DNA of 39,628 nt. It comes from Propionibacteriaceae bacterium. GTDB lineage: Bacteria > Actinomycetota > Actinomycetes > Propionibacteriales > Propionibacteriaceae. This document shows, in pieces, positions 4,889 to 22,694 of this stretch. The notes below the pieces were generated by a model. That model had not been told where the DNA came from. It searched no databases and saw nothing but the letters and a program-made list of their open reading frames with translations. The stretch lies in NCBI GenBank assembly GCA_031285845.1, contig JAITVK010000005.1, forward strand, positions 1 through 39,628, written 5' to 3'. The stretch's first letter is position 1. The number at the start of each line of letters is the position of its first letter. The position numbers and the translations under genes were made by a program.

Positions 4889-6604
4889 ATGAAGAACACA
4901 CGACGTGGGGTCGGCGCAGCAGCTGCCTTGGCCTCGCTTGCTCTGTTGCTGGCGGGATGTTCCAACGGTCCAACCGATGGCGGCGCCTCCGGCGGCACGA
5001 CTCCAGGTGACTCGACTGCGGTGGGAGTGACCATTGACGAGGCGCATTCAGTGGGTGCGATGGCATCGTACGACATCGGAACCACGTTCAAAGCGACTGA
5101 GCCGGTCGACATCTCACTGATGTATCGCGACATGCCGAACTATCCGGTGAAGGACGACTGGATGCTGTTCTCCCAATTGGAGGCGAACCAGAACATCACG
5201 TTCACGCGCACCGACATTCCGTTCGCCGACTGGTCGACCAAGCGTGGTTTGACGATCACCGGCGGTGACGCGCCCGAACTCATGCCGGTCTTCTACACCG
5301 GTGAGGAGACCGCCTACGCCGGTTCTGGTGTGTTGCTGCCGATCTCGGATTATGTGCAGTACATGCCGAACTTCACCAAGATCCTCAACGATTGGGATCT
5401 GGCCGACTACCTCGACACCAAGCGTCAGTCTGATGGCAAGTATTACCAGTTGCCTGGCCTGATGGAGATCGCGAAGGTGCAGTATTCGATCATCGTTCGT
5501 GACGATGTCTGGGAGCAGGCCGGTCTGACCGAGGATCCCACAGACATGGCCGGGTTGAAGACTGCGCTACAGAAGATCAAAGACACTGGCAAATGCACCT
5601 CGGGGTATCCACTGTCGGCGGCCAACAACGCCAAAGATCTGCTTCAGGCGTTCGGGCCCGGCTATGGAACCTCGGCTGGAGAATGGTCACTCCAGGGCTC
5701 GGGCGTGGTGTGGGACTCTGACCAGAGCAAGTACGTCTTCGCGGGCACTCAGGACGGTCAGAAGGAACTCATCACCTACATGGCGGACTTGGTGTCTTCC
5801 GGATTGATGGACCCCGAGTCGATGACCCAATCCACGGCGGACAACACCGCCGCTCAGGCCAAGTTCACCTCCGGTCAATCCTGTGCCGTCACCGGCAATG
5901 ATCAGGACGCCAACAATGTTCAGAAGACCCTGAAAGCCAATGGCATCGACACCACCGTGCATATGCTGCGAATCCCCGAAGGCCCGGCCGGTGACTACAT
6001 CGCGGGTGGCCAGCGCTTCAGCTCTGGCATGATCTTCTCATCCAAGCTGGCCGAGGATCCCCATTTCAAGGCGATTCTGCAATTCGTCGACTGGCTGTAC
6101 TTCTCGCCTGAGGGTGTCGAATTCGCTCAATGGGGTGTGCAGTGTGACGCTGGTGTGACTGATTCGACTCAGTGCACTTACACCAAGGATGCCTCCGACC
6201 AGCGCGCTCTGCTGGCCGACATCAACAATGCTCAAGGTTTGAATCCAGCGGGCACCAAGATGCTGACCGTGGATTACGGTTTCTCAAATGGTGTCTTCTG
6301 GCCAGCCAACGGCACGTATAAGGACCTCATGTTGAGCTATTACAGCCCGATCATGCAGGACTTCGCCACCAAGATGGCGACCAAAGCTGAAACTGACACG
6401 CCACCGGCGACGCCGATGGACTCCGACACTTTGCAGCAGACGGGCGCCCTCTACACTTCACTGAAGGACTTGGTGGCCACCAATGACACCAAGTTCATCC
6501 TTGGCCAACAGCCCATGAGTGACTGGGAGTCTTATGTCAGCCAGCTCGAAGCGGCGAGCATGGATCAATATGTCCAGCTCTACAACGACTCCGTCAAGAA
6601 GTGA
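4889..6604 (+). CDS. Extracellular sugar-binding lipoprotein of the ABC importer
   Basis: Membrane-anchored solute-binding protein that presents a glycan to the permeases at 2841 and 3899. The ATG at 4889 has GGAAAGGA at a good distance and starts a lipoprotein signal (MKNTRRGVGAAAALASLALL) with lipobox LAGC, Cys24 being lipidated. The mature part of about 548 residues has the size and aromatic-rich pattern of the large LplA-like binding proteins that pair with LplB/YtcP permeases. The frame is open further upstream to 4856, but this has no ribosome site and would bury the signal. The substrate cannot be read from sequence; neighbouring GH42 and GH39 enzymes suggest a plant-derived galactoside or xyloside. 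Confidence 0.9.
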   Translation: MKNTRRGVGAAAALASLALLLAGCSNGPTDGGASGGTTPGDSTAVGVTIDEAHSVGAMASYDIGTTFKATEPVDISLMYRDMPNYPVKDDWMLFSQLEANQNITFTRTDIPFADWSTKRGLTITGGDAPELMPVFYTGEETAYAGSGVLLPISDYVQYMPNFTKILNDWDLADYLDTKRQSDGKYYQLPGLMEIAKVQYSIIVRDDVWEQAGLTEDPTDMAGLKTALQKIKDTGKCTSGYPLSAANNAKDLLQAFGPGYGTSAGEWSLQGSGVVWDSDQSKYVFAGTQDGQKELITYMADLVSSGLMDPESMTQSTADNTAAQAKFTSGQSCAVTGNDQDANNVQKTLKANGIDTTVHMLRIPEGPAGDYIAGGQRFSSGMIFSSKLAEDPHFKAILQFVDWLYFSPEGVEFAQWGVQCDAGVTDSTQCTYTKDASDQRALLADINNAQGLNPAGTKMLTVDYGFSNGVFWPANGTYKDLMLSYYSPIMQDFATKMATKAETDTPPATPMDSDTLQQTGALYTSLKDLVATNDTKFILGQQPMSDWESYVSQLEAASMDQYVQLYNDSVKK

Positions 6605-14368: not shown

Positions 14369-14390
14369 ACATGCTAATATATGTGCATGT
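14369..14390 (+). promoter_or_regulatory. vapBC promoter and dyad operator
   Basis: A perfect inverted repeat ACATGC (14369-14374) N10 GCATGT (14385-14390) encloses the -10 hexamer TAATAT (14375-14380) and covers the ATG at 14387. The hexamer stands exactly 6 bases before the ATG, so the mRNA is probably leaderless. A dyad covering the -10 and start is what autoregulation by a ribbon-helix-helix antitoxin would use. Confidence 0.65.
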
Positions 14391-14653
14391 CTACCCTTGA
14401 GCGGCGAGTCCAAGTGCTTTTCGATCCGGTTGAGTACGATCAGCTTGAGGCGTTGGCGCAGCGGGAGCGCCGTTCGGTTGGAGCGGTTATCAGAGAGTCT
14501 GTACGGCGAACGTTGGCGACGCCGACGGCCACCCGACAAGCCGCGTTGTCACGGTTGCTTTCTCGCGCGGACACCGACCCGGGCGAACCAGTCGGCGACT
14601 GGAGTGTCGTGAAAGCTGGTTTCGAGCGCGACGATCTTCAGAGGATCCAGTGA
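14387..14653 (+). CDS. vapB: Antitoxin, VapB-like ribbon-helix-helix protein
   Basis: Predicted antitoxin of 88 residues that binds the VapC toxin and represses its own promoter. The N-terminal strand and two helices (RRVQVLFDPVEYDQLEALAQ, then RSVGAVIRESVRRTL) match the CopG/RHH DNA-binding fold; the remaining residues would bind the toxin. An in-frame ATG at 14381 exists, but the -10 at 14375-14380 places the transcript start at 14387. No ribosome site is present. The stop overlaps the vapC GTG start (GTGA). Confidence 0.85.
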   Translation: MSTLERRVQVLFDPVEYDQLEALAQRERRSVGAVIRESVRRTLATPTATRQAALSRLLSRADTDPGEPVGDWSVVKAGFERDDLQRIQ

Positions 14654-15090
14654 GCGTCCCCACCGCGCTGATCGACTCCAATATCGCGCTCTATGCCCTC
14701 GGCAGTGAGTCTGAGTGGCGCGAAGCGTGTCGTCATGTCCTCGTTCTTCTGGCTCAGGGGACGATCGCGGGAGTCGCGAGCACGGAGATGCTTCAAGAAG
14801 TGGCTCATCATCGGCTCCGAATGACCGGGAGTCGTTCTCGGGCGGTGGCCGACACTCGAGATGTCATGGCTCTGGTGGCCACGGTTGATTTTGATGAGGC
14901 GGTTCTTCACACCGCGCTCCATTTGATCGAATCCACCGGGATTCGGGGACGTGACGCGGTCCACGCCGCGACAGCCCTCACTCAAGGGGTGGATCGAATG
15001 ATCTCCATCGACCCGGCTTTCGACACTATCCCCGGTCTCACGCGGGTAACGCCCGCTGGTCTTGACGAGTGGATCGTGCAGGCTAGCTGA
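14650..15090 (+). CDS. vapC: PIN-domain ribonuclease toxin VapC
   Basis: Predicted toxin of the VapBC pair, a metal-dependent endoribonuclease of 146 residues. The acidic PIN residues are in place: Asp9 (LIDSNI), Glu46 (STEML), Asp102 (GRDAVHA) and Asp121/Asp125 (SIDPAFD). It therefore looks catalytically intact. The GTG start at 14650 overlaps the antitoxin stop by four bases, the usual way these pairs are coupled. A second, broken PIN gene lies at 39217-39378. Confidence 0.87.
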   Translation: MSVPTALIDSNIALYALGSESEWREACRHVLVLLAQGTIAGVASTEMLQEVAHHRLRMTGSRSRAVADTRDVMALVATVDFDEAVLHTALHLIESTGIRGRDAVHAATALTQGVDRMISIDPAFDTIPGLTRVTPAGLDEWIVQAS

Positions 15091-15245: not shown

Positions 15246-15311
15246 ATGATGAATTCGACGAGTCTGATTCCCCATGATGGCCGCGGTGTTCACTGGTGGG
15301 TGATCTCATGA
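15246..15311 (+). CDS. Short leaderless ORF coupled to the GH3 gene
   Basis: A 21-residue frame starting MMNSTSLIPHDGR and ending HWWVIS lies directly before the GH3 lipoprotein. Its ATG (15246) is 6 bases after GATACT (15234-15239), the spacing of a leaderless transcript. Its TGA overlaps the GH3 ATG (ATGA at 15308-15311). The GH3 start has only a weak GGTGGG ribosome site, so ribosomes ending this short frame could restart there. The peptide may have no function of its own. Coding status is uncertain. Confidence 0.4.
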   Translation: MMNSTSLIPHDGRGVHWWVIS

Positions 15312-16570
15312 CTCGGTCACGAGGAACAAAGCTTGCGCTGGTGGCAGGCGCGATGCTGCTGGCCACCGGCCTGGCACTGGCAGGGTGTGCGCGAAGCGTG
15401 CTCGATCCGCGACCTGGCGGCAGTGGTTCGAGCACGACGCCGACCATTCCCCCGGCTGGCGGCTCTCCGTCGCAGTCGACCCCGACTCCAACTGCGGAAC
15501 CCACCCCGACTCCACCCCCGCCCAGTCTGGGAGATCAGGTACGGTCCCGCGTGGCAGCGATGACGCTTGAGCAGAAGGCGGGACAACTTATCATCGTCGA
15601 GTGGCGGCGCGACGCCCGTACCGCCGCTGAGGCTACCGAGCTGATCACTCAGCTCAACGCTGGCGGCGTGCTGCTGTTAGGCGTGGGTTGGACGATGGGT
15701 GACACGCGTGCGGCCACTGCGGGGGTGTCTGCGTTGACTGCCACGCCGGGGATTCGAATGTTCATCGCCATGGATCAGGAGGGTGGAACGGTCCAGCGGT
15801 TGAGTGGCGCTGGGGTGACCCCGATACCGCCGGCCACCGAGCAGGGTTCCTGGCCAGTCGAGCAATTGAACGCGAGTGCCGCCGGGTGGGCGAACGAATT
15901 GATCCAGGCGGGTGTCAACGTGAATCTCGCGCCAGTGGCCGACACAGTCCCGGCCGACATGGTCGCCACCAATGAGCCGATCGGGTCGTTGAATCGGCAG
16001 TTTGGCAGCGACCCCGTGCAGGTTGGTGAGCATGCGGCCGCATTCGTGAACGGCATGTCGAGCCGAGGAGTCCTGACGGCGTTGAAGCACTTTCCTGGAC
16101 TCGGGCGAGTGACCGCTAACACGGATTTCGCCGCCTCGGGGATCGAAGATGGCATCACCACCGTTGACGATCCGTACCTGGAAGCTTTTCGGCTGGGAAT
16201 GGCGGCCGATCCGGCGATGGTCATGATCTCGTCGGCGGTCTATCCGCGGATCGACCCGAGTCGCCAGGCCATGTTCTCTCCCGCGATCATCACGGGTCTA
16301 CTGCGTGGACGCATGGGATGGGATGGTCTGGTCATCGGCGATTCGATGGATGCGGCGGCGGTGGCGGCTATACCGGCCGGTCAGCGAGCAGTGGATTTTG
16401 TGTCCGCTGGTGGTGACCTGATGACGCTGCGCAGCGCTGAGGACCTTCAGAGCGCCCATCAGGCGTTGGTCGCTCAGATCGCCGCGTCACCGGACTTCGC
16501 CGCCCAAGTCGACGCTGCCGTCACTCGAATCCTGCTGGCCAAGGCTAGCGCCGGGTTGCTCGACTTGTGA
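15308..16570 (+). CDS. GH3-family lipoprotein (NagZ/LpqI-like)
   Basis: Surface-anchored protein of the glycoside hydrolase 3 family, whose actinobacterial lipoproteins are linked to removal of N-acetylglucosamine from wall fragments. The 420 residues start with a lipoprotein signal and lipobox LAGC (Cys27), then a Pro/Thr/Ser-rich wall-spanning linker (about 31-75). The single barrel domain follows, with AMDQEGGTVQRL (about 154-165), KHFPGLGR (260-267) and the nucleophile Asp345 (LVIGDSM). The usual KHFPGHG...DSH loop that holds the NagZ His/Asp acid-base dyad reads KHFPGLGRVTANTDF, so that dyad is missing. The enzyme may use another acid/base or phosphate, or be a non-hydrolytic binder. Confidence 0.85.
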   Translation: MTRSRGTKLALVAGAMLLATGLALAGCARSVLDPRPGGSGSSTTPTIPPAGGSPSQSTPTPTAEPTPTPPPPSLGDQVRSRVAAMTLEQKAGQLIIVEWRRDARTAAEATELITQLNAGGVLLLGVGWTMGDTRAATAGVSALTATPGIRMFIAMDQEGGTVQRLSGAGVTPIPPATEQGSWPVEQLNASAAGWANELIQAGVNVNLAPVADTVPADMVATNEPIGSLNRQFGSDPVQVGEHAAAFVNGMSSRGVLTALKHFPGLGRVTANTDFAASGIEDGITTVDDPYLEAFRLGMAADPAMVMISSAVYPRIDPSRQAMFSPAIITGLLRGRMGWDGLVIGDSMDAAAVAAIPAGQRAVDFVSAGGDLMTLRSAEDLQSAHQALVAQIAASPDFAAQVDAAVTRILLAKASAGLLDL

Positions 16571-16605: not shown

Positions 16606-17688
16606 TCACCAGTCTGAGGCGGTGGCGACCAGTCGGTCGAGTGCGGCTTGGTGTTCTTGGATGAACTGCTCTTCTAAGTCGAAGCGGATGTCGATCAGGC
16701 GGGGTAGGTAGTTGGTCTGGGCGCGGCAGTCGAAGTCGGCCAAGGCGATGTCGCGTTCGGGCTGTGAGCCGAGCAGACTGACCGCCTCCGGCGGAGCCTG
16801 ATCAATGCGAGTGCCTGGAGGCACACTCACCACGCTCCCGTCCGGCGTCGTTTCAATGGCTCGATTCATAGCGATCTGTGGTCCTCCGTCTTCTGGTTCC
16901 CAACTTTGGGGGTCGAACACATAGCCTCTTGTGGCCATACAGCTCTCCCACTCGTCATTCAGTTTCAACACCGCTGGATCGATGAGGAATCCATCACGGG
17001 TGAGCATCGCCTCGGCGGAACGAATCAATTCGCCAAACTCGGTGATGAACCGCGCCGACCGATCGTCATAGGTGGTGGGTCGGGGATGGCTATCGGAAAC
17101 CTCTTGTAAACAGGAGCCGGCCATTGATTGCGTGCGGTAATCCCCCATCAGTGCGATGCTGTAGGCGTCGGCTTCGGCCGCGCTCAGTGACTCCCGATTA
17201 GCGAGGTTTGGATCATCAGGCTCGGTGGAGGCACTGTTGGGCGCGGCCATGATCCCGTACCCATTCCTCGCTACGACATCCCTGTCCGTGTCAAGGAATG
17301 GGACAGGCACGACTCGGGTGGTGTTGGCCACCACGGATGTCGCGGGGGTCACGTCGGTTGTGTGGGGGATGTAGCGAAATCCGCGAGCGCTCATACAGGT
17401 CGAGATGGCATCTTCTCCCTGTGCTTGCCACGCCGCCAACTCGTTTGCTTCCGCTGGAGTCATCTCGGGCCCAGCCATGTATTCAGCGTATTTCGACAAC
17501 GGAGAAGGGGATGTTATCTCCGTCGTGCGTCTGGCCGGGGGGAGGCCAGGCGCTGGTGTGATTTCTGACCCTTTTGGGATGACAGAAATCACACCAGGTT
17601 CGCTTGTTTGATTCGGGTTCTCTGCGGGAGCGCAGGCGCAAAGAATGAACGTCATCGCGACAAGAGTTCCCGCAAGGCGTGGTTTCAT
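16606..17688 (-). CDS. Four-cysteine lipoprotein, copy B of a duplicated module
   Basis: Lipoprotein of 360 residues with no recognised domain. The signal MKPRLAGTLVAMTFILCAC places the lipid on Cys19. The frame is open to 17811, but only the ATG at 17688 gives a signal peptide. It is a paralogue of the protein at 18071-19159. Shared blocks include YxxYMxGP, AELxAW-type helix then CMxxxGFRYxP, VVARNGYGxMAAP, AYSIALxGDY, and QPERDIALADxDCRAxxNYLPRL ending in EHQAALDRL. Four cysteines outside the signal are conserved (98, 193, 250, 321), suggesting two disulfides outside the membrane. The Pro-rich N-terminal linker differs and contains a 15-bp perfect inverted repeat. It follows the peptidoglycan-binding relic at 17708-17887. 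Confidence 0.85.
   Translation of the reverse strand: MKPRLAGTLVAMTFILCACAPAENPNQTSEPGVISVIPKGSEITPAPGLPPARRTTEITSPSPLSKYAEYMAGPEMTPAEANELAAWQAQGEDAISTCMSARGFRYIPHTTDVTPATSVVANTTRVVPVPFLDTDRDVVARNGYGIMAAPNSASTEPDDPNLANRESLSAAEADAYSIALMGDYRTQSMAGSCLQEVSDSHPRPTTYDDRSARFITEFGELIRSAEAMLTRDGFLIDPAVLKLNDEWESCMATRGYVFDPQSWEPEDGGPQIAMNRAIETTPDGSVVSVPPGTRIDQAPPEAVSLLGSQPERDIALADFDCRAQTNYLPRLIDIRFDLEEQFIQEHQAALDRLVATASDW
17553..17597. repeat. Perfect 15-bp inverted repeat inside lipoprotein B
   Basis: CTGGTGTGATTTCTG (17553-17567) is the exact reverse complement of 17583-17597, with a 15-nt loop that itself contains complementary CCC and GGG. The hairpin lies about 90-135 bases downstream of the ATG at 17688 and codes for residues 31-46 of the linker, around GVISVIPKGSEITP. 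The paralogue at 18071 lacks it. It would form a very stable mRNA structure. Confidence 0.85.
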
Positions 17689-17707
17689 GGCAGAATCTTC
17701 TGGCGTC

Positions 17708-17887
17708 CTAGATTCCCGGAGTCCGACCGCAGTCGTAGCCCGTGGGCACGGTGATGTGGATGGTGTCTGACCACCACATGCGATTGTGGGTTTGCGGTCC
17801 ATACTCCCCATCAGCGTTGATCCCGGACTCCCCCTGCTTCAGTTTGAGGGCGGCGAGGGCTACGCCTATTCGGTTCTCCATATTCAT
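17708..17887 (-). pseudogene. In-frame deletion relic of the peptidoglycan-binding gene
   Basis: A 59-codon frame that starts MNMENRIGVALAAL, matching MNMKNRIGVALAAL of the intact gene at 19187-19669. It then jumps straight into the end of the peptidoglycan-binding repeat, DGEYGPQTHNRMWWSDT against DGEYGPQTHNAMSWSAT. The hydrophobic half of the signal and most of the domain, about 90 residues, are missing. The join falls where Ala-Ala-Leu codons occur in both the signal and the domain, so recombination at short homology is the likely cause. The frame stays open, AGGAGACAGCT still precedes the ATG, and the final Cys is kept. Without a signal or full domain it is probably non-functional, or serves only as a leader for lipoprotein B. 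Confidence 0.8.
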
Positions 17888-17992
17888 AGCTGTCTCCTAT
17901 GTATCGTCTCGTCAGGCGTCGTGTCTGACTGGGATATCCGGGAAGAGAGAAGACCCCCGCTGGTTCCTGTAGTTGGATAGTAGGGACGTTAC
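17882..17992 (-). repeat. Duplicated upstream region, copy B
   Basis: About 110 bases before the relic are closely similar, by eye well over 80 %, to 19664-19773 before the intact peptidoglycan-binding gene. The conserved core, read on the minus strand, includes GGGGGTCTTCTCTCTTCC, a GTCAG/CTGAC inverted pair around ACACGACGC, and the AGGAGA ribosome site. It probably holds the promoter of each module copy. Confidence 0.8.
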
Positions 17993-18020
17993 GGCGTACG
18001 CCACCCCAGATCAAACCCGC

Positions 18021-18036
18021 TTGGCCACCTGGCCAA
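18021..18036 (-). terminator. Hairpin between the two module copies
   Basis: TTGGCCA (18021-18027) and TGGCCAA (18030-18036) form a perfect 7-bp inverted repeat with a 2-base centre, 35 bases after the stop of lipoprotein A. It lacks a U run. It could end the transcript of module copy A or be a protein site for copy B. Confidence 0.4.
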
Positions 18037-18070
18037 TACGGTCAACCGAAAGCTCGACTCACCCGAGGAT

Positions 18071-19159
18071 TCAGGCCGGGACACCGTCTTGCTCAGTCTG
18101 CTCCAGCCGATCCAGGGCGGCTTGATGTTCATGGATGAACTTCTCATCCATTGCCACTCGAATTGCTGTCAGTCTCGGCAGGTAGTTCAGCGAAGCTCGA
18201 CAGTCATAGTCAGCCAGGGCTATGTCGCGTTCTGGTTGGGTTCCCATCAGACTGATCTCCTCTGGGGGGATCTCCCCGACCCAGGTGTTGGGCCGCTCGG
18301 GGCCGAGGGATCCATCCGGCCGAGTTCTCATCGCGATCCCCATCGCGACTCGCGGGCCCTCCTCGCCAGCCCAGTCGGGCAGAGTCTGACCTGAGGACTT
18401 CATGCAGTTGACCCAGTCGCGGTTGAGGCTGGCGACCTGAGGGCCCGACAAGAGGTCGACGTTGACAAGTGCGCTCATGGAGCTAATCACACCGGAGGTT
18501 TCAGCGTCAAAAGCATCCACTCGGTCTGAGAAACGGGTGGGCTTGGGGAATGCTTCAATCGCATCCAAAGTGCATGAACCCTTGTTGGTGGGAACGTGAT
18601 AGTCGCCACGCAGCGCGATGCTGTACGCGTCCTGCTCCGCGGGACTCAGACTGTTCAGGTAGTCTCTGTTCGGGTCGTCATTGGCGGGCTTCCCCGTGAT
18701 GCTTTCTTTAGGTGCAGCCATGAGACCGTACCCGTTTCTCGCGACCACGGCGCGGTCGGCGTCGAGGTTGGGCACGGGCAACCAGCGAAGGAACTCACCT
18801 ACGCCGTGGTTGTCCCCGTCTTCTTCGGCGGGCGAAGGCACATAGCGAAATCCCTTTCTCGTCATGCAGGCTGCGATCGCGTCATCCAGTCGCACATGCC
18901 ATGCCTGGAGTTCGGTCGCCTCATCAGCCGTCTGACGTGGACCATCCATGTAGGGAATGTACCGCGCGAGCGGTGGCGCGGGGATGAGTTCGGTGTCCCA
19001 CTGAGCCGGAGGTGCTGTGTCTGAGGCGAGAATTGCGGAATTGTCATGATCTGCTGCAGCGGTCTGGGAATGTGAAGGTTCAGCCTGGGGCTGAGACGTG
19101 CATCCACTCAAAACCAGTGACGCAGTGACCAATGTCAGGCTGATCGCTCTCATCTTCAT
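18071..19159 (-). CDS. Four-cysteine lipoprotein, copy A of a duplicated module
   Basis: Lipoprotein of 362 residues without a recognised domain. The signal MKMRAISLTLVTASLVLSGC places the lipid on Cys20. The ATG at 19159 is 7 bases after GGAGG; a GTG at 19162 is too close and the ATG at 19153 too far. Cysteines 98, 196, 252 and 320 are conserved with the paralogue at 16606-17688, in CMTRKGFRY, NKGSCTLD, WVNCM and ADYDCRA. The C-terminus ends in a helical EHQAALDRLEQTEQ. It lies 27 bases after the peptidoglycan-binding gene, so the two form an operon. An exported anchor working with a wall-binding partner is the natural reading; the biochemical role is unknown. Confidence 0.87.
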   Translation of the reverse strand: MKMRAISLTLVTASLVLSGCTSQPQAEPSHSQTAAADHDNSAILASDTAPPAQWDTELIPAPPLARYIPYMDGPRQTADEATELQAWHVRLDDAIAACMTRKGFRYVPSPAEEDGDNHGVGEFLRWLPVPNLDADRAVVARNGYGLMAAPKESITGKPANDDPNRDYLNSLSPAEQDAYSIALRGDYHVPTNKGSCTLDAIEAFPKPTRFSDRVDAFDAETSGVISSMSALVNVDLLSGPQVASLNRDWVNCMKSSGQTLPDWAGEEGPRVAMGIAMRTRPDGSLGPERPNTWVGEIPPEEISLMGTQPERDIALADYDCRASLNYLPRLTAIRVAMDEKFIHEHQAALDRLEQTEQDGVPA

Positions 19160-19186
19160 CACAGCACCTCCGCGTGGTTGATGATG

Positions 19187-19669
19187 TCACAGAGGCCAGG
19201 CCATGTGACAGTCGGGGTGACCACCTCGGGATGCGAGAGTGGCTGACCATGACATGGCATTGTGAGTTTGCGGTCCATACTCTCCGTCAACCGTCACGCG
19301 ACCCACTCGCTGAGCCTCTCGAAGCGCCGCCGTCGTTTTTGGCCCCCAGATGCCGTCAGGAGTGCCATCGTTGAGTGGCCTTGACCCACAATATGTCATG
19401 GCCGCTTGCAGCGCCTTGACTGCTTCGCCTCGAGCTCCCGCCCACATGACGCAGTTCATTGAGTACCGGTCGCCTGAGAGGAAGCCCGGGACATAGATGA
19501 TCCCTTCGTGCTGGGCTGTCTGTCTGACTGCCTCCGTGCACCATCCGGCTGTGGTGGGTGTGATGCCGACTGCGTTGGCTGTGTTGTGGTTGATGGGTGT
19601 TCCGGTGAGTCCGACGAGGATCATGGTGAGTGCGGCGAGGGCTACACCTATTCGGTTCTTCATATTCAT
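19187..19669 (-). CDS. Secreted peptidoglycan-binding protein
   Basis: Exported 160-residue protein. AGGAGA stands five bases before the ATG at 19669. The signal peptide runs MNMKNRIGVALAALTMILVG to about residue 35. The mature part has a Cys-bearing region (GWCTEAVRQTAQ, MNCVMWAG) and then a peptidoglycan-binding type 1 fold. The latter is seen as GEAVKALQAAMTYCG, DGIWGPKTTAALREAQR and DGEYGPQTHNAM (about 90-145). Four cysteines in the mature protein would allow two disulfides. There is no catalytic domain, so it is expected to dock on the wall. It is the first gene of module copy A, and a deletion relic of the same gene heads copy B. Confidence 0.87.
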   Translation of the reverse strand: MNMKNRIGVALAALTMILVGLTGTPINHNTANAVGITPTTAGWCTEAVRQTAQHEGIIYVPGFLSGDRYSMNCVMWAGARGEAVKALQAAMTYCGSRPLNDGTPDGIWGPKTTAALREAQRVGRVTVDGEYGPQTHNAMSWSATLASRGGHPDCHMAWPL

Positions 19670-19773
19670 AGTTATCTCCTAGTATCGTCTTGTCAGGCGT
19701 CGTGTCTGACTGAGATATCCAGGAAGAGAGAAGACCCCCTTTGGTCGCTCCGCTTGGATGAAGAGACGCTACG
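19664..19773 (-). repeat. Duplicated upstream region, copy A
   Basis: Partner of 17882-17992. The alignment runs from the start codons of the peptidoglycan-binding genes through the ribosome site, the GTCAG/CTGAC dyad and the pyrimidine-rich CTTCTCTCTTCC block. A one-base gap occurs beside the ribosome site, and similarity fades beyond about 19773. A GATACT hexamer just before the ribosome site is a possible -10. Confidence 0.8.
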
Positions 19774-19950
19774 CCCCACCGAAACACCATGTCAAATCCA
19801 CCAGCAACCAAGCGCGCTCTGTTCGGGCGGGGCCTGTGGTGGCCTCCGCTCGGGGACGGCGAGCGCAACCTGCCGTTCGAAGACGCCCGCCGTGTTCCCT
19901 CGGCGCGGTAGAATCCTTCTTGTTCACATTCGACAAGGAGGTCTTCTCAT

Positions 19951-21329: not shown

Positions 21330-22694
21330 TCAAGACCCGGGCGCCAATTCGGTGATCCGGTTGGTTGGACGCCACACATACTTTCGACCTTGGCGGGCTC
21401 GCTCCAGCCAGCCGCGCTTCACGAGGTCGTCCAGATCGGTGTGGGCGGTGTTGATGGTGACAGCGAACTGCGCTGCGGCGGATTGAGCAGTCCACGTCGT
21501 GTCAGGGTCTTTGTATCCGGCGTTGAGCAGGGCGATCTGGCGAAGATTGAACTCACCGGTGGCAGGGTCGAGCCGCCGACGGACCGCGTCCAGTTCCTTG
21601 GTCGTGCGCTGAATGTAGGACTCTAGGTTGGTGATCGCGCGAGACAGCACGGTCAGGTGATAGTGAAAGAAGTACGTCAGGTCACCCTCATCGGTCTCGA
21701 CATCGAGAAACGACTCGGCGTACTGGACTCGAGCCTTGTTGAGGATCATGGAGATCGCGATGTATTCTGCCAGCCAGTAGCCTTCGTGTAGCATCGTCCA
21801 ATAGAACAGCGCCCTGGCCGTACGCCCATTGCCGTCGGCGAAGAAGTGGTTGTATCCCATCATGAAGTGGACGACGAGCGCCCGCAGAACGCCTGGCAGG
21901 TAGGGGCCCTCATCTTCACCGTTGGCGAAGGCGCACAGCGCGTCCAAACGCTGAGGCGACTGGTCGGCTGGAGGCGGTTGGTGGAGGAGAGCGTCGTCCT
22001 CAACCGCGTAGATGCCGACTCGATCATCGGTGTTCGTCTGGAGGCGACCAGCGTCGTCAGGGTCCTCAAGAGTGTTCTGCGTCACGATGCGATGAATCTC
22101 GCACACTAGCTGAGGAGTCAGCTTCTGAGAGCGCACCTGCCCGATGTGGCGCATCGCCCGGTAGTTGTTCAGAATCATCTGTTCGCTGTGAGTACGAGGG
22201 GCACGGTCATCGCGGAGCATGCGCTTGGCCACCTGGCGGGTGGTCATCGCACCCTCCAGTTGGCTGGAGGTGATGGCCTCATCTTCCAGTGAATGGATGA
22301 TGTAGCGGTCCCGGGAAGCCGAGTTCGTCACCTCGTCGCCGAGGCCAAGCTCGCCTTTGAGCGCGGCGGCCGTGCGGTCGCAATCGCGCAAGATGCGATC
22401 AGTCAACACAAAAGTGAACGGATGACCATTGGGCATTGTCAGGCCCAGCAGTTCCTTTTGTCTGAACCGCCTGCCGCTGCGCAAAGAGATCCACCACTGC
22501 TCTGGCGTCAACTGGCGGGGAGTTTGCTCGGTCGATTCGTTCAGCCGAATCGTGGGAAGTGGGCGTTCATGCCGCAGTATCCGCCAGGGAAGGTAGTCGT
22601 CGTCGGGCAAGGCCTGACTGATCAGGCTGACGATGAGGGCCGGCTCGTCGGCTAGCGCGCGAACTACATCGTCAAAGTCGGGCGGCGCCGCCAA
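21330..22694 (-). CDS. Fic-domain AMP-transferase, class II (N-terminal inhibitory helix)
   Basis: Fic proteins usually transfer AMP from ATP to hydroxyl groups of target proteins. The 454 residues contain the active-site motif HFFADGNGRTAR (283-294) with its catalytic His283. The inhibitory motif SSQLEG (143-148) lies before the Fic core, which defines class II, self-restrained enzymes. An N-terminal domain (LTPEQWWISLRSGRRFRQ) and a C-terminal winged helix (about 385-450, ending YVWRPTNRIT) match the common bacterial Fic/wHTH architecture. The start is TTG at 22694, the only start that keeps the family N-terminus; it has no good ribosome site. No separate antitoxin is needed or seen. Confidence 0.9.
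   Translation of the reverse strand: MAAPPDFDDVVRALADEPALIVSLISQALPDDDYLPWRILRHERPLPTIRLNESTEQTPRQLTPEQWWISLRSGRRFRQKELLGLTMPNGHPFTFVLTDRILRDCDRTAAALKGELGLGDEVTNSASRDRYIIHSLEDEAITSSQLEGAMTTRQVAKRMLRDDRAPRTHSEQMILNNYRAMRHIGQVRSQKLTPQLVCEIHRIVTQNTLEDPDDAGRLQTNTDDRVGIYAVEDDALLHQPPPADQSPQRLDALCAFANGEDEGPYLPGVLRALVVHFMMGYNHFFADGNGRTARALFYWTMLHEGYWLAEYIAISMILNKARVQYAESFLDVETDEGDLTYFFHYHLTVLSRAITNLESYIQRTTKELDAVRRRLDPATGEFNLRQIALLNAGYKDPDTTWTAQSAAAQFAVTINTAHTDLDDLVKRGWLERARQGRKYVWRPTNRITELAPGS

Follow-up and report, generated by a model that had tools for sequence, protein, structure and literature searches.

Tandem cassettes of a structured leader, a wall-binding protein and a four-cysteine lipoprotein in a Propionibacteriaceae genome: possible orphan front ends of a MacAB-like system

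We analysed the whole of a 39,628-nucleotide (nt) stretch of a Propionibacteriaceae bacterium (contig JAITVK010000005.1, positions 1 to 39,628; hereafter 'the window'), which is contig C15 of a 2.68-Mb genome (G000) in 37 contigs. Within positions 16606-19773 lie two head-to-tail cassettes on the minus strand, each made up of a leader, a gene for a peptidoglycan (PG)-binding protein and a gene for a four-cysteine lipoprotein, and every gene that a preliminary description of this DNA had placed here was found. In cassette A a putative promoter spotted by eye (TTGACA-18 nt-TAGCGT, 19766..19795), whose putative -10 overlaps the first bases of the leader, precedes leader A (19670..19771), which is predicted from DNA alignment, RNAalifold and pair counts to fold into two hairpins plus a helix between a CU-rich block (UCUUCC) and the Shine-Dalgarno (SD) sequence AGGAG, and which scores 85.4 bits with covariance model R1, being a member of its training set. 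Next come the secreted PG-binding protein P0003 (19187..19669; 160 residues, cysteines at 44, 73, 94 and 154), which matches PF01471 (PG_binding_1) at 48.9 bits (cut-off 23), and lipoprotein A (18071..19159; 362 residues), identified by its translation, its homologues and an AlphaFold2 model. Cassette B repeats this arrangement with leader B (17888..17990), which has the same architecture by DNA repeat and alignment (R1 82.1 bits, likewise a training-set member), a relic of the PG-binding gene, P0004 (17708..17887; 59 residues), and lipoprotein B (16606..17688; 360 residues), known from its translation and homologues. The relic has suffered an in-frame internal deletion and keeps its start, its stop and the original C-terminal part; at 15.2 bits it falls under the PF01471 cut-off, so the contrast between an intact and a ruined wall binder drawn earlier is borne out. 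The frames of both lipoproteins contain no internal stops. The same description had spoken of a duplicated promoter region: the DNA upstream of the two cassettes does repeat (84-91%, over the leader and first codons), but the likeness is strongest in the leader, which lies between the promoter and the start codon, and the -35/-10-like hexamers, spotted by eye near 19766-19795 and 17986-18014, were missed by a consensus promoter scan (0 found vs 1.0 expected).

The two lipoproteins belong to one family, as both homologue searches and alignment indicate: 161 of 355 aligned positions (45%) are identical, with a global alignment score of 704 against a mean of -70 (standard deviation 20) in 100 shuffled alignments. 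The four cysteines of the mature part are in register exactly as first described (98/98, 196/193, 252/250 and 320/321 in A/B) and are invariant across 25 aligned homologues; further cysteines are the lipobox Cys20 in A and Cys17 and Cys19 in B. By inspection, both signal peptides end in a lipobox cysteine (LSGC, residues 17-20, in A; LCAC in B), and lipidation is predicted. No Pfam match over the cut-off was obtained for lipoproteins A and B and 19 homologues (best E 0.035), and none over the curated cut-off in NCBIfam, searched with A and B only (best E 0.033). The AlphaFold2 model, built on a 25-sequence input, is mostly helical (mean pLDDT, the predicted confidence score, 83), with low confidence for residues 1-47.

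Elsewhere, the family stands at the head of transporter operons: the window lipoproteins are homologous to the first gene of MacAB-like operons. On contig C29 of the window's own genome the order is leader, PG-binding relic, shortened lipoprotein, second leader, a gene that we call adaptor-like, an ATPase and a permease. The adaptor-like protein (615 residues) carries PG_binding_1 at 23.3 bits (cut-off 23); downstream follow an ATP-binding cassette (ABC) ATPase (ABC_tran) and a permease with FtsX and MacB_PCD in Pfam, which matches the solved MacB-type permeases 5xu1 and 5lil by comparison with the PDB. The order lipoprotein, adaptor-like gene, ATPase, permease recurs in C29 (locus L040), G015 (L042), G006 (L049) and L069, and the lipoprotein-headed MacAB-like operon is also carried by G056 and by Microbacterium (L089). 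Five Kribbella-like genomes have lipoprotein, adaptor-like gene, ABC ATPase and MacB/FtsX-type permease, facing a response regulator and a sensor kinase, and an annotated Streptomyces plasmid lists in turn a hypothetical protein, a 'peptidoglycan-binding protein', an ABC ATP-binding protein and an ABC permease. Among divergent homologues in genus members without the expansion, the adaptor-like gene is next in L110 and L111 and not in L112. The ectodomain of the histidine kinase beside the Kribbella-type operons likewise has four fixed cysteines; kinship between it and the lipoprotein was considered and rejected (profile comparison E 0.09/0.19, probability <1%), and a search of the window's genome, run without a positive control, did not find this ectodomain.

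With lipoprotein A as query, the window's genome yields five intact loci, its own among them, and a sixth whose two pieces are separated by an in-frame internal deletion; the four other intact copies are 38-45% identical to lipoprotein A and free of stops. Intact PG-binding partners outside the window are found on C13 and at C29:137.8k, and relics on C15 and at C29:92.9k. The statement that the lipoprotein was kept twice and the wall binder once thus describes the window correctly, but gene counts over the genome give five intact lipoproteins to three intact stand-alone wall binders of the P0003 family. PF01471 itself occurs at ten places, of which nine exceed the cut-off and one, on C28, falls under it. 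The stand-alone partners account for three; two more belong to adaptor-like frames that lie 0.8 and 2.1 kb away from a lipoprotein, and C9, C16, C4 and C21 have the rest. Like the window copies, those on C13 and at C29:138k had no transporter in the stretches examined. Damaged copies are frequent, in the form of relics, internal deletions, fused starts and fragments of genes.

Beyond this genome, which is included in all genome counts, a single-sequence search gave matches in 14 of 57 genomes of a kinship sample, profile A2 (threshold E 1e-3) hit 11 of the 19 genomes of the genus, with only weak matches in six (best E 2e-9 to 5e-4), and profile A1 matched 14 of 296 genomes sampled across the phylum. 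A scan of genome contigs yielded 36 loci, of which 33 lie in metagenome-assembled genomes (MAGs) titled Propionibacteriaceae (10) or Bifidobacteriaceae (23), the remaining three being one apiece in Cellulomonas, Sanguibacter and Microbacterium. Most of the matching MAGs, L064 excepted, bear isolate codes that we take to denote termite-gut samples. In the genus, and in other Propionibacteriaceae and Bifidobacteriaceae MAGs, a small secreted PG-binding protein often accompanies the lipoprotein, and these genes are scattered over the genomes in many copies. One Bifidobacteriaceae MAG has 21 lipoprotein matches, 17 of them full-length. The Sanguibacter locus (L092) is a tandem array of several lipoprotein copies with an adaptor-like gene at its end, and a lipoprotein frame at L042:12672-13967 (-) has two successive lipobox-like starts, which suggests recombination between paralogues.

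The earlier proposal that a PG-binding gene should adjoin the lipoprotein gene holds when counted from the binders and only in part when counted from the lipoproteins. In 16 genomes selected for carrying the lipoprotein, 25 of 28 PG-binding profile matches lay within 600 nt of a lipoprotein gene against ~0.24 expected, a proportion biased upwards both by this choice of genomes and because the underlying alignment (A7) was drawn from genes first seen near lipoproteins; of the 25, 24 immediately precede the lipoprotein gene on its own strand, and the one in Cellulomonas immediately follows it. Counted in reverse, only 24 of 62 full-length lipoproteins have a PG-binding partner, and for the other 38 no gene of that family was found within 600 nt, though some absent partners may fall at contig ends. 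Here 'full-length' means a match of more than 880 nt, which drops the shortened C29 copy and counts once a gene of G010 that is spread over two frames; two short G006 pieces were excluded, and the adjacency counts are non-independent, copies within a genome being duplicates.

Nine cassettes, from the two genomes G000 and G015, have upstream regions that align over ~100 nt; this alignment (A3, 9 rows) was picked by eye, and the upstream regions of C13 and G015_d were omitted as unlike the leader. Given no structure, RNAalifold predicted hairpin A, the UCUUCC:SD helix, and a hairpin B enclosed by that helix; for the pair statistics, hairpin B was lengthened by two pairs. Leader cells were paired at 84.8% against 78.1% in column shuffles (none of 500 as high), both-side changes occurred in 8 of 19 pairs (11 of 500 shuffles as high, and sliding the structure by -2 also gives 8), and the covariation score was 0.393 against 0.267 shuffled and at most 0.244 in slid versions; the number of pair types was no higher than in shuffles (102/500). 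Support for the SD helix comes mainly from conservation, since two of its five anti-SD:SD pairs are invariant. In a second alignment (A8, 11 rows), fitted to the covariance model and including a chance opposite-strand match at 19652-19732 (+) (E 0.017), both-side changes were no higher than in shuffles (121/500). A covariance-model search of the 19 genus genomes, in which 150 candidates per genome, out of a larger number, were scored, gave ten hits under E 1e-3: the nine training places and one new place, C29:91739-91839, which scores 33.8 bits (E 3.5e-6 for one genome) and stops at the predicted start codon of the pump's adaptor-like gene. Other hits, with E 0.0095 to 1, were treated as chance, and an Rfam search of six cassette loci at E <= 1 gave 0 matches.

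The leader is not always followed by a wall binder: on C25 it runs straight into the lipoprotein. In three PG-binding relics (in the window, on C29 and in the operon of G015) the frame that begins at the leader's start codon still runs open as far as the original end, and a fourth (L042:14041-14172) has lost its start. Open relic frames are what translational coupling to the lipoprotein would require, and we infer such coupling. Other genomes have upstream repeats of their own. G006 (L049, L050) has a different ~100-nt leader in three copies, each preceding a cassette, the two further ones being 98% and 88% identical to the first, and in a Bifidobacteriaceae MAG three PG-binding genes are ~75-80% identical over ~175-194 nt of upstream region and first codons, the likeness of a fourth being limited to its first codons.

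A further copy of the domain appears in what may be a sensor. At L056 (G056), 4984-6021 (-) encodes an anti-sigma-like membrane protein, by inspection with a short cytoplasmic part and one membrane segment, whose ectodomain is identical at 218 of 257 positions (85%) to the neighbouring lipoprotein, that of the divergent pump operon; it lies beside a gene with sigma-70 regions 2 and 4. Because the domain is common to a putative sensor and a pump-linked lipoprotein, it would most simply be one for ligand recognition, as judged from the proteins of one genome only. In the Streptomyces record, the protein beside a sigma factor fails to match the lipoprotein profile.

Since their homologues head MacAB-like operons, the window copies have the look of front ends that were duplicated and parted from a pump. 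The preliminary description had taken the locus for an exported two-protein system; the pairing does recur beyond the window, but the family heads a four-gene MacAB-like operon with a PG-binding domain in the adaptor-like protein, and given these operons we therefore recast the cassettes as diverged front-end copies, orphaned from the pump of a Gram-positive MacAB-like system and with a ligand-capture role, a reading whose chances we judge to be evenly balanced. The lipoprotein, on the outer face of the membrane, would capture a ligand from outside the cell, a peptide or a lipid-II- or membrane-active compound being the likeliest, and would pass it to adaptor and permease, which would drive it off the membrane. 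The PG-binding partner would fix the place of the complex in the wall, the diverged faces of the copies would broaden the range of ligands, and the leader would allow pump and catchers to be produced jointly. Beyond the linkage and the common leader, this mechanism is one that we infer. In its fullest form, one MacAB-type pump would be served in trans by a stock of wall-anchored four-cysteine lipoproteins that capture ligands and can replace one another, with pump and lipoproteins coupled through a 5' leader of a new class that hides the ribosome-binding site and could be released by a common signal; this form is speculative and rather unlikely.

Several observations weigh against reading the cassettes as front ends of a pump. 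Inspection of the window revealed no transporter gene adjoining its copies, on C25 the transporter genes that follow the lipoprotein are degraded, and the leader turned up in only two of the 19 genus genomes searched. The lipoprotein of the C29 operon is ~75 residues short and its wall binder a relic, for which reason the C29 pump may itself be decaying. The label 'adaptor-like' derives from position and from the mutual homology of these proteins: neither Pfam nor NCBIfam has an adaptor model that matches the C29 protein, and the Streptomyces one reaches 32.9 bits with RND_mfp, the adaptor model of resistance-nodulation-division (RND) systems, under a cut-off of 94.9. Comparison of the predicted lipoprotein fold with the PDB by Foldseek and VIA-align gave no informative match, and the anti-sigma-like protein at L056 has no match in Pfam or NCBIfam. 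GC content at third codon positions (GC3) is low in the cassettes (0.64-0.67 vs 0.72-0.75 for two neighbours), which would also fit relaxed constraint.

These points leave room for other explanations. The cassettes could be an autonomous pair of wall protein and lipoprotein, now independent of any pump and serving, for instance, to bridge membrane and wall; the tight linkage of the PG-binding partner, and the absence of a transporter from the stretches examined around the copies in the window, on C13 and at C29:138k, speak for this. Such a pair would nevertheless share its leader with the pump's adaptor-like gene and stand in an operon with MacB-type genes in relatives, and 38 of the 62 full-length lipoproteins have no wall binder that was found; we regard it as unlikely. 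We hold no higher an opinion of the idea, drawn by analogy with LanI, that the lipoproteins may act as decoys or in immunity, binding a toxic peptide and keeping it at the surface with no hand-over to a pump. They are multi-copy, divergent and membrane-anchored, and they are linked to a class of system described as protecting against peptides (PMC5985334), yet the invariant cysteines and the sensor-like L056 copy suggest more than a sponge.

That the extra copies are selfish or neutral, members of a recombination-prone family drifting without selected function, would suit the abundance of relics, internal deletions, fused starts and fragments as well as the low GC3. Against this, four further intact copies have stayed stop-free at 38-45% identity to lipoprotein A, the cysteines are invariant and the leaders show pair-keeping changes, and we consider drift very unlikely.

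Among described systems the closest are the Gram-positive MacAB-type systems with an adaptor, YknXYZ and SpMacAB, which likewise have a MacB-type permease and an ABC ATPase beside an adaptor or adaptor-like protein; the present system differs in its added four-cysteine lipoprotein, its often separate PG-binding protein and its many orphan copies away from the pump. One account (PMC5985334) reports that MacAB systems of Gram-positive bacteria give protection from peptides such as SDP and that YknX, the adaptor, is a peptidoglycan binder; it describes YknW, the extra Bacillus subunit, as a membrane protein and poses as a question what an adaptor does where there is no outer membrane. The family described here may supply a candidate extra subunit for such systems. 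Lantibiotic immunity by LanI and LanFEG also combines a surface lipoprotein with an ABC exporter, often together with a two-component system. The resemblance to our lipoprotein and exporter is one of analogy only, and the transporter here is of MacB type and accompanied by an adaptor-like protein. P0003 is a member of the PG_binding_1 (PF01471) secreted proteins, from which it differs by its four cysteines and its near-constant lipoprotein neighbour. In its predicted anti-SD:SD helix closing over a hairpin, the leader resembles the general class of structured 5' leaders by which a ribosome-binding site is masked; it is unlike known ones in having no Rfam match and strong hits only before genes of the MacAB-like system, in 2 of the 19 genus genomes. 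What is new here is a leader of ~100 nt whose predicted fold would mask the ribosome-binding site and which is common to nine cassettes of G000 and G015 and, in G000, to the pump's adaptor-like gene; it is a candidate regulatory RNA joining dispersed genes in one regulon. The analysis also gives context and a candidate role to an actinobacterial lipoprotein family, a member of which is labelled 'hypothetical protein' in the Streptomyces record, and reveals a lineage-specific expansion of cassettes in bacteria that are presumably mostly from termite gut.

Around the cassettes, 15296-16570 (+), converging on cassette B, encodes a lipoprotein-like glycoside hydrolase family 3 protein, a possible wall-recycling enzyme, and 21330-22694 (-) a Fic/DOC-family protein whose C-terminal stretch matches Penicillinase_R under the cut-off. 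Two overlapping small genes, 14381-14653 (+) and 14650-15090 (+), resemble by inspection a ribbon-helix-helix antitoxin and a PIN-domain toxin, and a Phd/PIN-like pair apparently also lies beside the C13 cassette (L039:4394-5130).

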